Source of the DNA: Candidatus Gastranaerophilales bacterium
GTDB lineage: Bacteria > Cyanobacteriota > Vampirovibrionia > Gastranaerophilales > Gastranaerophilaceae
Length of the DNA stretch: 37,805 nt
NCBI GenBank assembly: GCA_947584965.1
Contig: CANPWQ010000016.1
Coordinates: 1 to 37,805 of the forward strand
Direction: 5' to 3'
The notes beneath the pieces were generated by a model. The model made no database searches, had not been told where the DNA came from, and saw only the letters and a list, made by a program, of their open reading frames with translations. Below, in pieces: positions 6,592 to 34,498 of the stretch. The first letter of the stretch is position 1. Every line of letters starts with the position of its first letter. Both the position numbers and the translations under genes were made by a program.

Positions 6592-6609
6592 TTAACATTT
6601 TGTTACAAA
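6592..6609 (+). promoter_or_regulatory. HLR1-like box (candidate RpaB site)
   Basis: TTAACATT TT GTTACAAA matches the cyanobacterial HLR1 consensus (G/T)TTACA(A/T)(A/T)-N2-(G/T)TTACA(A/T)(A/T) at 15 of 16 defined positions. It also overlaps a perfect inverted repeat, ATTTTGT-T-ACAAAAT (6597-6611). It lies between the 41-aa microprotein gene and the gene at 6762. RpaB binding is inferred from the rpaB orthologue in this window. Confidence 0.4.
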
Positions 6610-6761: not shown

Positions 6762-7214
6762 ATGCAAATAAGCAAAATTGGTTTAAATACAAAAAAAACA
6801 GTACAAAACACACATTCAGAAAAGAGATTATCAACAAATCCTTTTGGTGTAAGTTTCAAAGGCAACGTGATACAGGCAGATGTATTTGAGACAGGGAATA
6901 AGACAAGTATAACAAAAAATATCAGCGAAAAGAGCAAATTATTTGCATCTGCTGTTGTAAGCGGTATAAACAGTTTTAACGAATCATTTAAATCAAGAAT
7001 GAATGCAATAGTATCTTTCGGTAAAAAAGTTGCATCGGATACACTTGAAACACTTGAAAGAATAGGAAATACCGAAATTAAAATAAACATGGACGGAATA
7101 AAAGATAAAATCTTCCCGGACAGAAAATATGAAGTAAAAAATTTGTCAAAAATGCCTGTTGAAGAATTAAAAAGCATGTGGCAGGATTTAACGGAAGAAG
7201 AAGCGGCAGCATAA
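6762..7214 (+). CDS. Small unknown protein with N-terminal SFKG motif
   Basis: A 150-aa protein of no family I recognise. It begins MQISKIGLNTKK and has NPFGVSFKGNVIQ at about residues 27-39, an N-terminal segment resembling that of the GNAT-like protein at 5018-5611. The rest is Ser/Lys-rich and predicted soluble, with an acidic C-terminus (LTEEEAAA). No signal peptide or membrane helix. The Shine-Dalgarno AAAGGA precedes the ATG. It ends 18 bp before the next gene and is likely co-transcribed with it. The overlapping minus-strand ORF is a shadow. Confidence 0.7.
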   Translation: MQISKIGLNTKKTVQNTHSEKRLSTNPFGVSFKGNVIQADVFETGNKTSITKNISEKSKLFASAVVSGINSFNESFKSRMNAIVSFGKKVASDTLETLERIGNTEIKINMDGIKDKIFPDRKYEVKNLSKMPVEELKSMWQDLTEEEAAA

Positions 7215-16378: not shown

Positions 16379-16471
16379 TAAATTAAGTTTTGTAAAGCAT
16401 TCAAAGTCAATAATAACAAGGATTTTTCTTTTTCCCAAAAAATAATTAAATAAAAAACTAAAGTTTTAAAA

Positions 16472-16566
16472 AATAATGCCGATAAGATTATTGTCAAGGG
16501 CGAAAGCCCCATAAAACCTCCCTCCCCAAAGTCTAGTAGCCGCCTTAATAGGACGGCTTTTTTTTG
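16472..16566 (+). ncRNA. Candidate small RNA with CU-rich anti-Shine-Dalgarno segment
   Basis: A plus-strand terminator here has no upstream plus-strand gene for more than 3 kb. Before it are two hairpins, AATAAT/ATTATT (16472-16477 with 16487-16492) and GGGC-GAAA-GCCC (16498-16509, a GNRA tetraloop). A single-stranded CCTCCCTCCCC (16517-16527) follows, complementary to GGAGG-type ribosome binding sites. The hairpin / CU-rich single strand / terminator layout resembles cyanobacterial Yfr1-type riboregulators, although the Yfr1 core motif itself is absent. It could alternatively be an attenuated leader of the gene at 16621. No clear promoter was found. Confidence 0.45.
16538..16566 (+). terminator. 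Intrinsic terminator
   Basis: AGCCG-CC pairs with GG-A-CGGCT around TTAATA (16538-16557, one bulged A), followed by a run of T to 16565. It faces plus and marks the 3' end of the candidate small RNA. Confidence 0.8.
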
Positions 16567-19976: not shown

Positions 19977-20789
19977 TTATTCTTCAACAGAAGCTGTTTC
20001 TTGAGCTTGAACTTCAGTTTCAGCTTCAGCCTTAACTTCTTCTTCAACACCTGCGTCTTCGGCTTTTACTGACTGTATTTTTGACATCTGGTTAGCTTTG
20101 TTTTCTCTTAATTGTTTTCCCTCTAAAACAGCATCAGCCAATTTAGAACAAACTAATTTTATTGCTCTTATTGCGTCATCGTTTCCGGGAATGATGTAAT
20201 CAATACCTTCAGGATCTGCGTTTGTATCTGCAAGACATACAACAGGTATATTTAATTTGTTAGCTTCCGCTATGGCAATAGCTTCTTTTGTCTGGTCAAT
20301 AATTACCAACAAATCAGGCATACCTCTCATTTCTTTGATTCCGCCTAATGTTTTTGTTAATTTAGATAATTTTCTCATCATTTGAGCTATTTCTTTTTTC
20401 GGTAATTTTTCCATTTGACCTGAATTAGAAAACTCTTCAATTTCTCTTAACTTATTAACCCTGCCTCTTATGGTTTCAAAGTTAGTAAGCATACCGCCCA
20501 ACCATCTTCTGTTAACATAATAAGCGCCTGCTCTTGTAGCTTCTTCAGCAACAACGTCAACAGCCTGTTTTTTTGTTCCGACAAAAACAACATTTTTGCC
20601 TCTTGCAGCACAATCCCTAACTGCAGCATAAGCCTCATCAAGTTTTTCGGATGTTTTTCTTAAATCTAATACATAAATTCCGTTTCTTGCTCCGTAAATA
20701 TACGGTTTCATTTTAGGGTTCCATCTTTGAGTCTGGTGACCAAAGTGAACACCTGCGTCCAATAATTCAATCATTGATGCTACCGGCAT
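19977..20789 (-). CDS. rpsB: 30S ribosomal protein S2
   Basis: 270 aa from the chosen ATG at 20789, which follows AAAAGGAG at proper spacing. An upstream in-frame ATG (20843) would add 18 residues translated from the leader RNA and is rejected. Diagnostic S2 motifs: [37 protein letters not shown] and [12 protein letters not shown]. The C-terminus is a long acidic Ala/Glu/Val tail. It is the first gene of the rpsB-tsf operon. Confidence 0.98.
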
Positions 20790-20897
20790 CTTTTTCTCCT
20801 TTTTTCTTCTTGTACCTCGTGAATTGCTTTCCCATCTTAACAAAGACTAAGTCATTACTTACTTGTAATCTAACCTATCGGATTCACAACTCATTAA
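20790..20897 (-). promoter_or_regulatory. Structured rpsB leader (candidate autoregulatory RNA)
   Basis: The minus-strand leader has an 8-bp closing stem TTGTGAAT (20882-20889) with ATTCACGA (20817-20824, one G-U pair). Inside it is a hairpin ATTAC/GTAAT (20854-20858 with 20865-20869) and the palindrome GACTTAGTC. The closing stem ends about 27 nt before the rpsB ATG. S2 feedback on rpsB-tsf is known in gamma-proteobacteria; whether this RNA binds S2 is inference. Confidence 0.4.
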
Positions 20898-20944: not shown

Positions 20945-20962
20945 TTTGTTAATTTTTGTAAA
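20945..20962 (-). promoter_or_regulatory. HLR1-like box upstream of rpsB
   Basis: On the minus strand TTTACAAA AA TTAACAAA matches the HLR1 consensus at 15 of 16 defined positions. With the predicted rpsB start near 20897 it lies at about -48 to -65, the position where RpaB is reported to activate in cyanobacteria. Confidence 0.35.
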
Positions 20963-21049: not shown

Positions 21050-21463
21050 ATGGATAGCAAAAAATTATTAGTCGGACAAAGTGTGGGTTTAGCTGCAGGA
21101 GCAGGTTTAGGTGCAGCAGTAGGTATTACAAAAAGCAAAAAAATCTTGGCTCCATTTAAAGGTATTTATTTAAAAGGCAGCGATCAGTTCTACAAAAATC
21201 AATCCGATTACGTAGCAAAAGCTATAAAAGAAGGCAAAAATAATGGAATTATCAAAAATTTTGCATCATATAAAGCTATTAAAGAAAAAGCAGTTGAAGC
21301 ATATGAAGGACTTGCCAAAGCTCTTCCAAATGCACTAAAAAAAGCAAATTTAACAAAAATAAAATGGGTTGCAGGTTTAGGTGCAGCAGGTTTGGCTATA
21401 GGTACATTAGCAACTCTTCTGATTAACAAAGTTAAAGCAGGTAAGGCTGAGAAAGCGCAATAG
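21050..21463 (+). CDS. Small protein with two glycine-zipper membrane segments
   Basis: 137 aa, no recognised family. Two hydrophobic Ala/Gly-rich segments (GLAAGAGLGAAVGI near residues 13-26 and WVAGLGAAGLAIGTLATLL near 107-125) have small-xxx-small spacing typical of glycine-zipper helices that pack or oligomerise in membranes. The 80-residue middle is basic and helical, and PFKGIYLKG occurs near residue 35. A single-gene unit: it has its own promoter and a strong terminator. It could be a membrane-associated structural or stress protein. Confidence 0.7.
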   Translation: MDSKKLLVGQSVGLAAGAGLGAAVGITKSKKILAPFKGIYLKGSDQFYKNQSDYVAKAIKEGKNNGIIKNFASYKAIKEKAVEAYEGLAKALPNALKKANLTKIKWVAGLGAAGLAIGTLATLLINKVKAGKAEKAQ

Positions 21464-32623: not shown

Positions 32624-32651
32624 TTGATTTTTTTATATTTTGTAATATAAT
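32624..32651 (+). promoter_or_regulatory. rpaB promoter
   Basis: TTGATT (32624-32629), a 16-nt spacer and a perfect TATAAT (32646-32651). The predicted start is near 32658. The -10 lies inside the HLR1-like box. Confidence 0.7.
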
Positions 32652-32656
32652 GTAAA
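32639..32656 (-). promoter_or_regulatory. HLR1-type box over the rpaB -10
   Basis: On the minus strand TTTACATT AT ATTACAAA matches the HLR1 consensus at 15 of 16 defined positions (only the first base of the second half differs). It covers the rpaB -10 element, the location expected for repression, so negative autoregulation by RpaB is the simplest reading. HLR1 is the established RpaB site in cyanobacteria; its use in this organism is inferred. Confidence 0.6.
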
Positions 32657-32691
32657 CAAAGGTAATATTTTATTTTTAAGGGGTCTGAAAA

Positions 32692-33441
32692 ATGACAGAA
32701 AGTAATGAAGTGCAAACAGAGCAAGATGCTCATCAAAAAATTTTAGTGGCTGATGATGAAGCAAGTATCAGAAGAATTTTAGAAGCACGTTTAAGTATGA
32801 TTGGTTATGAAATAATTACCGCATCAGACGGTGAAGAGGCTATTGCGGCATTTAATAAACATAATCCCGATTTAATTGTATTAGATGTTATGATGCCTAA
32901 AATTGACGGTTATGGAGTAACCAGAGAAATAAGAAGAACATCTGATGTTCCTATTATTATACTTACTGCGCTCGGAGATGTTTCAGAAAGGATAACAGGA
33001 CTTGAACTTGGTGCTGATGACTATGTAATTAAACCATTCAGTCCGAAAGAACTTGAAGCCAGAGTTAAAGCTGTTTTAAGAAGAACAGGTACTAAAGAAG
33101 TTAGTGCGCCTGCAAGTAAAATAGCTAAAAATGTTATTACAACGGGTAATATCAGAATTGATACCGCAAGAAGACAGGTATTCAGAAAAAATGAACGTAT
33201 AAGACTTACGGGCATGGAATTTAGTTTGCTTGAACTGCTTGTTAATAATTCAGGGCAAGCATATTCAAGAAATGAAATATTGCAGCATGTATGGTCTTAT
33301 CCGCCGGATCACAGAATTGATACGAGAGTTGTTGATGTTCATATATCAAGACTGCGTTCTAAATTGGAAACTGACCCTGCAAATCCCGAATTAATCCTTA
33401 CAGCACGCGGTATCGGATATATGTTTCAAAGAATTGCATAA
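32692..33441 (+). CDS. rpaB: RpaB-type OmpR-family response regulator
   Basis: 249 aa. The receiver domain (residues 16-130) has the DDE acidic pocket (21-23), phospho-acceptor D65 and K114 (VIKPFS). The winged-helix domain (about 150-247) has RIRLTGMEFSLLELLV and VVDVHISRLRSKLE. The match to cyanobacterial RpaB (for example the ASIRRILE, RLSMIGY, VMMPK and LELGADDYV runs) is strong over the full length. In cyanobacteria it pairs with the kinase NblS and controls high-light and basic growth genes through HLR1 boxes. Here photosynthesis genes are absent, so it must serve another purpose. NblS is not in view. Ribosome site AAGGGG; terminator follows. Confidence 0.93.
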   Translation: MTESNEVQTEQDAHQKILVADDEASIRRILEARLSMIGYEIITASDGEEAIAAFNKHNPDLIVLDVMMPKIDGYGVTREIRRTSDVPIIILTALGDVSERITGLELGADDYVIKPFSPKELEARVKAVLRRTGTKEVSAPASKIAKNVITTGNIRIDTARRQVFRKNERIRLTGMEFSLLELLVNNSGQAYSRNEILQHVWSYPPDHRIDTRVVDVHISRLRSKLETDPANPELILTARGIGYMFQRIA

Positions 33442-33448
33442 AAAAATA

Positions 33449-33480
33449 AAAAAGACCTCTTAAATTAAGAGGTCTTTTTA
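33449..33480. terminator. Bidirectional terminator
   Basis: A 13-bp stem AAAAAGACCTCTT (33449-33461) with AAGAGGTCTTTTT (33467-33479). Ends rpaB and the convergent XRE gene. Confidence 0.9.
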
Positions 33481-33489
33481 TATTGTTTT

Positions 33490-33705
33490 TTATATATTTT
33501 TCATTAATTCACTTATATCAATTTCAAGTATTTTGGAAATATCATAAACTAAAAATACGGAAGGTGTCTGTATACCTCTTTCTATTAAACTGATTGTACT
33601 TTCGCACACATTTACTTTTTCTGCAAGCTCTGCTTGTGTAAGGTTTTTTCTGTATCTTTCCGCTTTTAAATTTCTTGCAAATATTTTGTTTCTTTCATCT
33701 TTCAT
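33490..33705 (-). CDS. XRE-family transcriptional regulator
   Basis: 71-aa single-domain helix-turn-helix protein of the Cro/CI type. The HTH has LTQAELAEKVNVCESTISLIERG (residues about 23-45), followed by TPSVFLVYDISKILEI. No extra sensor domain. It is divergent from the prepilin-like gene across a 118-bp region full of inverted repeats, suggesting it represses itself and/or that gene. A perfect TATAAT lies 7 nt from the ATG and there is no Shine-Dalgarno, so the mRNA is probably leaderless, as in phage CI repressors. Confidence 0.93.
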   Translation of the reverse strand: MKDERNKIFARNLKAERYRKNLTQAELAEKVNVCESTISLIERGIQTPSVFLVYDISKILEIDISELMKNI

Positions 33706-33741: not shown

Positions 33742-33779
33742 GAAACTAAACTACTATTAAATAGTAGTAATCTACTACT
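33724..33779 (+). promoter_or_regulatory. Prepilin-like gene promoter and overlapping operators
   Basis: TTGACA (33724-33729), a 17-nt spacer and TAAACT (33747-33752). Overlapping the -10 is a 19-bp perfect palindrome ACTACTATT-A-AATAGTAGT (33750-33768). Its right arm also forms a second inverted repeat, AGTAGTA-ATC-TACTACT (33763-33779), giving three half-sites. The palindrome TTTCTTAAGAAA (33734-33745) lies in the spacer. A binding site for the neighbouring XRE protein is the obvious hypothesis. Confidence 0.55.
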
Positions 33780-33823
33780 AGCTGGTATTATATTATAAAA
33801 TTCTACACGGGAGAAATTTCCAT

Positions 33824-34498
33824 ATGAGAAAGAGCGCATTTACACTCGCAGAAATTTTGATTACACTTGTAATTATAGGTGTAATAGCCGCAATGTGCGT
33901 TCCTGTTATATTTACAAACTATCAGGAGCAGGAAAGAGCTGCAAAAGTCAAGAAAGCATATTCAACAATATCAAGAGCTTTCAATTTATTAAAAGTTTCA
34001 GGGGCTGAATATCTGTTAGAGGATACAACATTAACAAATAATCCTGAATCCTTGTTTGATTTTTTTGAACATTATATTAAACCTAATCTTATTACAATCA
34101 AAATATGCAAAGAAACAAAAGGATGCTGGAGTAACGACGATACAAAATTTTTAAACGGGAAAAAAATAGATTTTGAAGTCAGCAGACCAGGTATAGGAAT
34201 AGGTTGGGATATTGTTTCATGCATATTAAATGACGGAACATTTGTAACATTCAATATGTATAATCAGGGAGATACAAAAATATATGCCAAAATTAACTAT
34301 GACGGAGCTGCTTTAAGAATAGCTTTTGATATAAACGGAGCAAAAAAACCAAATACAATAGGCAAAGATATATTTTATATGCATTACATTCCGGGCAGGG
34401 GCGTTGTTCCTTCGTATATAGATGCTGCAGAAGAAATTGAAAAAGATTGTACAAAAACCGGAAAGGGGTTAAGCTGCACAATTAAATATTTGAAATAA
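33824..34498 (+). CDS. Type IV prepilin-like protein
   Basis: 224 aa. The N-terminus is a class III signal, MRKSA/FTLAEILITLVIIGVIAAM, with the conserved Glu five residues into the mature part. The residue before cleavage is Ala, where Gly is usual. After the helix, the globular domain (about 30-224) has four or more cysteines (CKETKGC, CILN, DCTKTGKGLSC) that could form disulfides. This fits a pilin or pseudopilin-like secreted protein of the kind abundant in Vampirovibrionia. No other pilus genes are nearby. It may be controlled by the divergent XRE protein. Shine-Dalgarno GGGAG. Confidence 0.87.
   Translation: MRKSAFTLAEILITLVIIGVIAAMCVPVIFTNYQEQERAAKVKKAYSTISRAFNLLKVSGAEYLLEDTTLTNNPESLFDFFEHYIKPNLITIKICKETKGCWSNDDTKFLNGKKIDFEVSRPGIGIGWDIVSCILNDGTFVTFNMYNQGDTKIYAKINYDGAALRIAFDINGAKKPNTIGKDIFYMHYIPGRGVVPSYIDAAEEIEKDCTKTGKGLSCTIKYLK

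Follow-up and report, generated by a model that had tools for sequence, protein, structure and literature searches.

An HLR1-type regulon predicted in the non-photosynthetic Gastranaerophilales is linked to sigma-28 promoters and probably includes rpaB in one genus

The rpaB locus and its product

The stretch of DNA analyzed, referred to as the window, comprises 37,805 nucleotides from a Candidatus Gastranaerophilales gut bacterium, the nearest named records of which are metagenome-assembled genomes (MAGs) from animal guts. Photosynthesis genes are reported to be absent from this group in two studies (PMC3787301, PMC4040986), in agreement with the original prediction that the window comes from a non-photosynthetic lineage. 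The rpaB gene is located on the + strand at positions 32692–33441 and encodes an OmpR-family response regulator of 249 residues, none of which is cysteine. Residues 18–247 match the NCBIfam equivalog model of RpaB (NF045944) with 362 bits, above its cut-off of 330, and the next best family, at 240 bits, remains under its own cut-off. The assignment of the gene as a full-length RpaB orthologue is thus confirmed. A Shine-Dalgarno sequence, AAGGGG, can be read at 32678–32683 (+), and the gene is followed by a strong intrinsic terminator at 33449–33479 (+); therefore, rpaB is probably monocistronic. An XRE-type helix-turn-helix gene is located at 33490–33705 and has the inverted repeat TAGTAGTAATCTACTACTA upstream (approximately 33754–33782), and then there is a prepilin-like gene at 33824.

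OmpR-family regulators read DNA with a recognition helix, and cyanobacterial RpaB reads the HLR1 element. The window protein has the recognition helix DTRVVDVHISRLR, which all 75 RpaB orthologues of the order share, as do 19 of 20 cyanobacterial RpaBs. A search of the genome for full-length OmpR-type regulators, using the window RpaB as the query (E < 1e-40), identified only two paralogues: an RpaA-like regulator on contig 65 and another OmpR-family regulator on contig 39. Their recognition helices are unlike that of RpaB, and their scores against NF045944, 214 and 203 bits, are below the cut-off of 330. A cysteine that is invariant in the 20 cyanobacterial RpaBs, bears on redox control, and lies outside the definition of the RpaB family is replaced by Thr77 in the window protein. 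The same position is threonine in 67 of the 75 RpaBs of the order and cysteine in 10 of 15 from other Vampirovibrionia, which suggests that thiol-based control, if there is any, differs in Gastranaerophilales. MAG contigs often end within about 300 bp of rpaB (G018, G039, G055, G057, G058, G062, G079, G092), and the gene is missing from several near-complete genomes, as if its neighborhood breaks assemblies.

An HLR1-type repeat covers the rpaB core promoter

The core promoter of rpaB consists of the -35 hexamer TTGATT (32624–32629, +; TTGAWW in the genus) and the -10 hexamer TATAAT (32646–32651, +), separated by 16 bp, and matches the consensus at 10 of 12 positions. The transcription start is inferred to be at approximately 32657–32659. 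The -10 hexamer lies under a direct repeat on the - strand, TTTACATT-AT-ATTACAAA (32639–32656), the halves of which are 10 bp apart. The + strand reads TTTGTAATATAATGTAAA and its complement, TTTACATTATATTACAAA, agrees with KTTACAWW-N2-KTTACAWW at 15 of 16 positions; the only mismatch is the K of the second half, where there is an A instead of G or T. The full consensus is not reached, and we call this near-match HLR1-type. The repeat ends 35 bp before rpaB and spans approximately -20 to -1 relative to the inferred start. A re-reading of the sequence agrees with the previously claimed 15/16 match over the TATAAT. There is also a third half-site on the - strand at 32659–32666 (AAGGTAAT on the + strand), so that the + strand reads TTTGTAAT-at-AATGTAAA-ca-AAGGTAAT, a tandem array of three half-sites in an exact 10-bp register.

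The box is conserved on rpaB orthologues within the genus, whereas other genera of the family keep it in a degenerate form only. The box matches HLR1 at 15 of 16 positions in 29 of 33 promoters from the same genus, at 14 in three, and at 13 in one. The TGTAA of the second half is present in 32 of the 33 and the GTAA of the third half-site in 28. Within the genus, sequence identity is highest in the 28-bp box, at 0.95, and falls to 0.79 in the upstream flank and 0.70 in the leader. In the other genera of the family, rpaB is preceded by a different promoter, TTGCAA-17-TTAATATA (ACTTGCAA followed by TTAATATA), from which a perfect HLR1 is absent and in which there is a degenerate half-site in register instead. 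In 41 of 66 non-identical rpaB promoters of these genera, the distance from the start of the -10 element to a half-site matching at 7 or more of 8 positions is exactly 10 bp, compared with two at +9 and one at +11; these promoters share ancestry and the counts are not independent. In 20 cyanobacterial rpaB promoters, the best box reaches 14/16 once and the remainder do not exceed 13. The exact form of the box is thus confined to one genus, which speaks against HLR1 on rpaB as a general feature. Because the cyanobacterial promoters have no such box, the autoregulation of rpaB through HLR1 would not be an inherited cyanobacterial trait but one of the genus, perhaps with a weaker form in the family. 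The candidate idea that a perfect HLR1 is kept upstream of rpaB across the order was rejected by the comparison of rpaB upstream regions. One genome, G080, has a perfect HLR1 187 bp upstream of rpaB; however, this site is closer (104 bp) to a divergent gene.

HLR1 sites are enriched in genomes of the order

The 63 genomes of the order contain 544 perfect HLR1 sites, compared with 87 for a spacer of 3 bp and 120 matches to the reversed pattern; because the genomes are related these totals are not independent events, yet the spacing control is equally related and the two differ sixfold. The 2-bp spacer outnumbers the 3-bp spacer in 60 of the 63 genomes. In 28 further genera of the family there are 574 perfect sites, up to 49 per genome, against 63 for the reversed pattern. 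The genome that contains the window has 11 perfect sites, all of which are intergenic when a 50-codon reading frame overlapping one of them is taken as spurious, whereas of the 25 single half-sites counted in the window only 7 lie between genes. An RpaB-HLR1 type circuit outside photosynthesis, as had been proposed from the rpaB box, is therefore upheld by the genome-wide, spacing-specific enrichment and not by that single box.

Nine genomes of the phylum from outside the class contain between 1 and 15 perfect sites (eight genomes) or none (one genome); therefore, Gastranaerophilales carry at least as many HLR1 sites as their photosynthetic relatives. In genomes from other orders of the class, there are 13 perfect sites in G099 and nine in G104, and none in G093, G098, and G113, in which RpaB is present. 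Several Vampirovibrionia outside the order that possess RpaB have few or no HLR1 sites, without an excess.

Direct repeats are positioned at a fixed distance from sigma-28 promoters

A sequence of the sigma-28 consensus, CTAAAGTTTT-N-GCCGATAT, is located between many of the HLR1 sites and the start codon. A set of sigma-28 promoters was assembled blind to HLR1 by searching ten genomes for TAAAGTTT-N10-13-GCCGATA alone, which retrieved 30 loci. In 17 of the 30, a repeat matching HLR1 at 14 or more of 16 positions is present within 100 bp upstream. The repeat ends exactly 17 bp before the -35 element in ten loci, and most of the others are one helical turn away. A Markov null model gives a probability per promoter of 3.5% for a repeat at any position and 0.04% for one at -17, corresponding to about 1 and 0.01 of the 30 loci. 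The sigma-28-linked repeats are centered approximately 60 to 75 bp before the inferred transcription starts. Each of the 15 genomes tested from the order has a FliA that exceeds the curated cut-off. The window itself contains a sigma-28 type promoter, TAAAGTTT-N11-GCCGATA (16459–16484, +), which has no HLR1 repeat upstream (best match 11/16).

Loci L163, L174, L182, L184, L188, L190, and others are sigma-28 promoters of lineage-specific genes with a TGTAA repeat 17 or 27 bp before the -35 element. Some of the target proteins begin with MGLAASQ or MGYALFA, and EF-hand-like proteins are also found among them. A Pfam search with ten target proteins identified no informative family; the single match above the gathering score was a marginal dockerin, in a protein that also has a sub-threshold EF-hand. 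Other HLR1 targets in this genome are tmk and a ComM-like gene, whose names are based on their sequences, and a histidine kinase gene for which NblS is the best model, at 224 bits, far under the NblS cut-off of 1000.

Proposed mechanism of the RpaB-HLR1 circuit

We propose that Gastranaerophilales retain a working RpaB-HLR1 circuit in which the RpaB orthologue would bind, as a tandem dimer, to KTTACAWW direct repeats with a period of 10 bp. At many promoters, the repeat would be placed just upstream of a sigma-28 (FliA) promoter, centered about 60–75 bp before the transcription start, and RpaB, in response to a presumed signal, would help the sigma-28 polymerase to transcribe lineage-specific genes. 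In the genus of the window, the three half-sites would cover the -10 hexamer of the rpaB promoter, which is of the sigma-70 type, and the region of its transcription start, where RpaB most likely represses its own gene. We assign a probability of about 0.62 to this proposal as a whole. The genome-wide excess of sites, their fixed distance to sigma-28 promoters, and the identical RpaB helix indicate that an HLR1-type regulon exists without photosynthesis, as judged from sequence. That RpaB is the binder of the repeats is well supported but unproven, and the rpaB box probably serves autoregulation in a single genus.

In cyanobacteria, HLR1 over the core promoter represses and upstream HLR1 activates (PMC13421787, PMC6331805), with position ranges of -38 to +23 for repression and -45 to -66 for activation (PMC13421787). 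According to this rule, the rpaB box would be repressive and the sigma-28-linked repeats activating, a reading with which the positions agree provided that the start sites were inferred correctly; self-repression of rpaB in the genus of the window is therefore likely on positional grounds. The original prediction went further than the data in two respects: negative autoregulation remains an interpretation of position, and the suggestion that the circuit predates or outlives photosynthesis implies an order of events where the data provide co-existence.

The main rival to the self-repression of rpaB is an element at the same place as the box. The sequence ATATTTTGTAATA forms the core of a perfect dyad, TTATATT-TTGT-AATATAA, at 32633–32650, and may act as an operator or as an RNA element; if another regulator or RNA element reads it, the likeness to HLR1 would arise because the element sits on the -10 hexamer. 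The dyad is kept in all 33 promoters of the genus, better than the second HLR1 half. Beyond the genus, 18 of the 42 rpaB upstream regions compared within the order contain ATATTTTGTAATA, where 0.3 would be expected, and few copies of it occur in the rest of the sequence examined. In other genera, it is located in the 5′ leader downstream of the -10 hexamer (for example, in rpaB leaders L044–L071), and it is conserved in genera without HLR1 there, whereas in the genus of the window it coincides with the -10 hexamer and the first HLR1 half. ATATTTTGTAATA accounts for the first half of the box but leaves unexplained the conservation past the -10 hexamer, where TGTAA and GTAA continue in the 10-bp register, as well as the in-register half-site at the -10 hexamer of other genera. 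The element itself contains a 7/8 half-site, so the two readings are compatible, and we consider it rather improbable, though the strongest of the alternatives, that ATATTTTGTAATA alone explains the box. A chance match created by a strong -10 hexamer in an AT-rich genome, which would leave meaning to the genome-wide sites only, appears improbable to a greater degree. Taken alone, the match of the rpaB box is modest: the window has three sites with no more than one mismatch to HLR1, against 0.5 expected, and the genome has 63, against 38 for the reversed pattern. Other 15/16 sites, both intergenic, are located upstream of the gene at 6762 (6592–6609, +) and between the divergent genes 19977–20843 and 21050–21463 (20945–20962, -). 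A near-identical string occurs at the likely promoter of a tRNA gene of the same genome, which was read from the sequence; therefore, the resemblance may in part reflect ordinary promoter sequence, and the entire core promoter is conserved in the genus. The box nevertheless stands above chance: its position is intergenic and on the core promoter, a third in-register half-site extends it, and most congeners keep it at 15/16, with conservation that reaches beyond the -10 hexamer. Moreover, the same register recurs in other genera in spite of their different promoter sequence.

The regulon may also be real and be read by another OmpR-family regulator, the RpaA-like protein of contig 65 or the one of contig 39, while RpaB has its targets elsewhere. 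Both paralogues are present in the genome, and RpaA and RpaB of cyanobacteria compete at shared promoters (PMC13421787). In addition, G075, which is 99% complete, contains 11 perfect HLR1 sites, and RpaB was not found in it. We considered G075 as a decisive counter-example and rejected it as such, since rpaB is also missing from five near-complete genomes whose genera otherwise possess it and many copies of rpaB lie near contig ends; its absence from G075 is possibly an assembly gap. The helix with which cyanobacterial RpaB reads HLR1 is retained by RpaB alone, in every orthologue of the order compared, and the paralogues have other helices, which makes this alternative unlikely, somewhat less so than a chance match at rpaB.

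Relation to known systems

Homologues of RpaA, RpaB, and NblS in Melainabacteria are already known, and another function was suggested for them, from the studies by Di Rienzi (2013, PMC3787301) and Soo (2014, PMC4040986). The sections consulted describe the same genes in non-photosynthetic relatives but present no binding sites, targets, or promoter architecture, and the 2013 paper makes no mention of HLR1. A link between HLR1 and Gastranaerophilales was not found in the open literature, which is a weak absence because subscription papers were mostly outside the scope of the search, and nothing useful was found on RpaA motif structures or Vampirovibrionia regulators. The contribution of this analysis beyond the single rpaB box is the HLR1-type regulon, as predicted, tied to sigma-28 promoters in non-photosynthetic bacteria. 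The role of RpaB and NblS in these relatives of cyanobacteria has been in question since 2013, and it can now be tested with one purified protein, given a defined motif, a fixed arrangement at promoters, and the many targets predicted in each genome.

The predicted system shares with the cyanobacterial NblS/Hik33-RpaB circuit an orthologous regulator with an identical recognition helix, the same 18-bp direct repeat with a 10-bp period, and positions that fit the core-promoter versus upstream logic. It differs in that the host is without photosynthesis, rpaB itself carries a box, and the RpaB cysteine is mostly replaced by threonine. The consensus and spacing of the target promoters match those of sigma-28 (FliA) promoters, TAAAGTTT-N11-GCCGATAA, and FliA is present; unlike ordinary sigma-28 promoters, they are preceded by a direct repeat of the OmpR type, which lies 17 or 27 bp before the -35 element. 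To our knowledge, no sigma-28 promoter with such a repeat has been described.

The unchanged helix and the many copies of HLR1, many of them at sigma-28 promoters, indicate that the job of the circuit is probably unrelated to light harvesting. It follows for the origin of the cyanobacterial light-response network that light is not necessarily what the regulator and its DNA code evolved for. As a tentative extension, which we hold to be somewhat less probable than its opposite, RpaB-HLR1 may be an ancestral, phylum-wide regulator that was later recruited to photosynthesis and that, together with sigma-28, drives many lineage-specific and possibly exported proteins in Gastranaerophilales. Unlike in cyanobacteria, the targets examined here are mostly lineage-specific proteins at sigma-28 promoters, in addition to the NblS-like kinase, tmk, and the ComM-like gene. 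The NblS-like kinase gene (locus L140, contig 49 of genome G000) is located near an rpoB-like gene and has a perfect HLR1 in common with a divergent small open reading frame, which is preceded by a sigma-28-like promoter.
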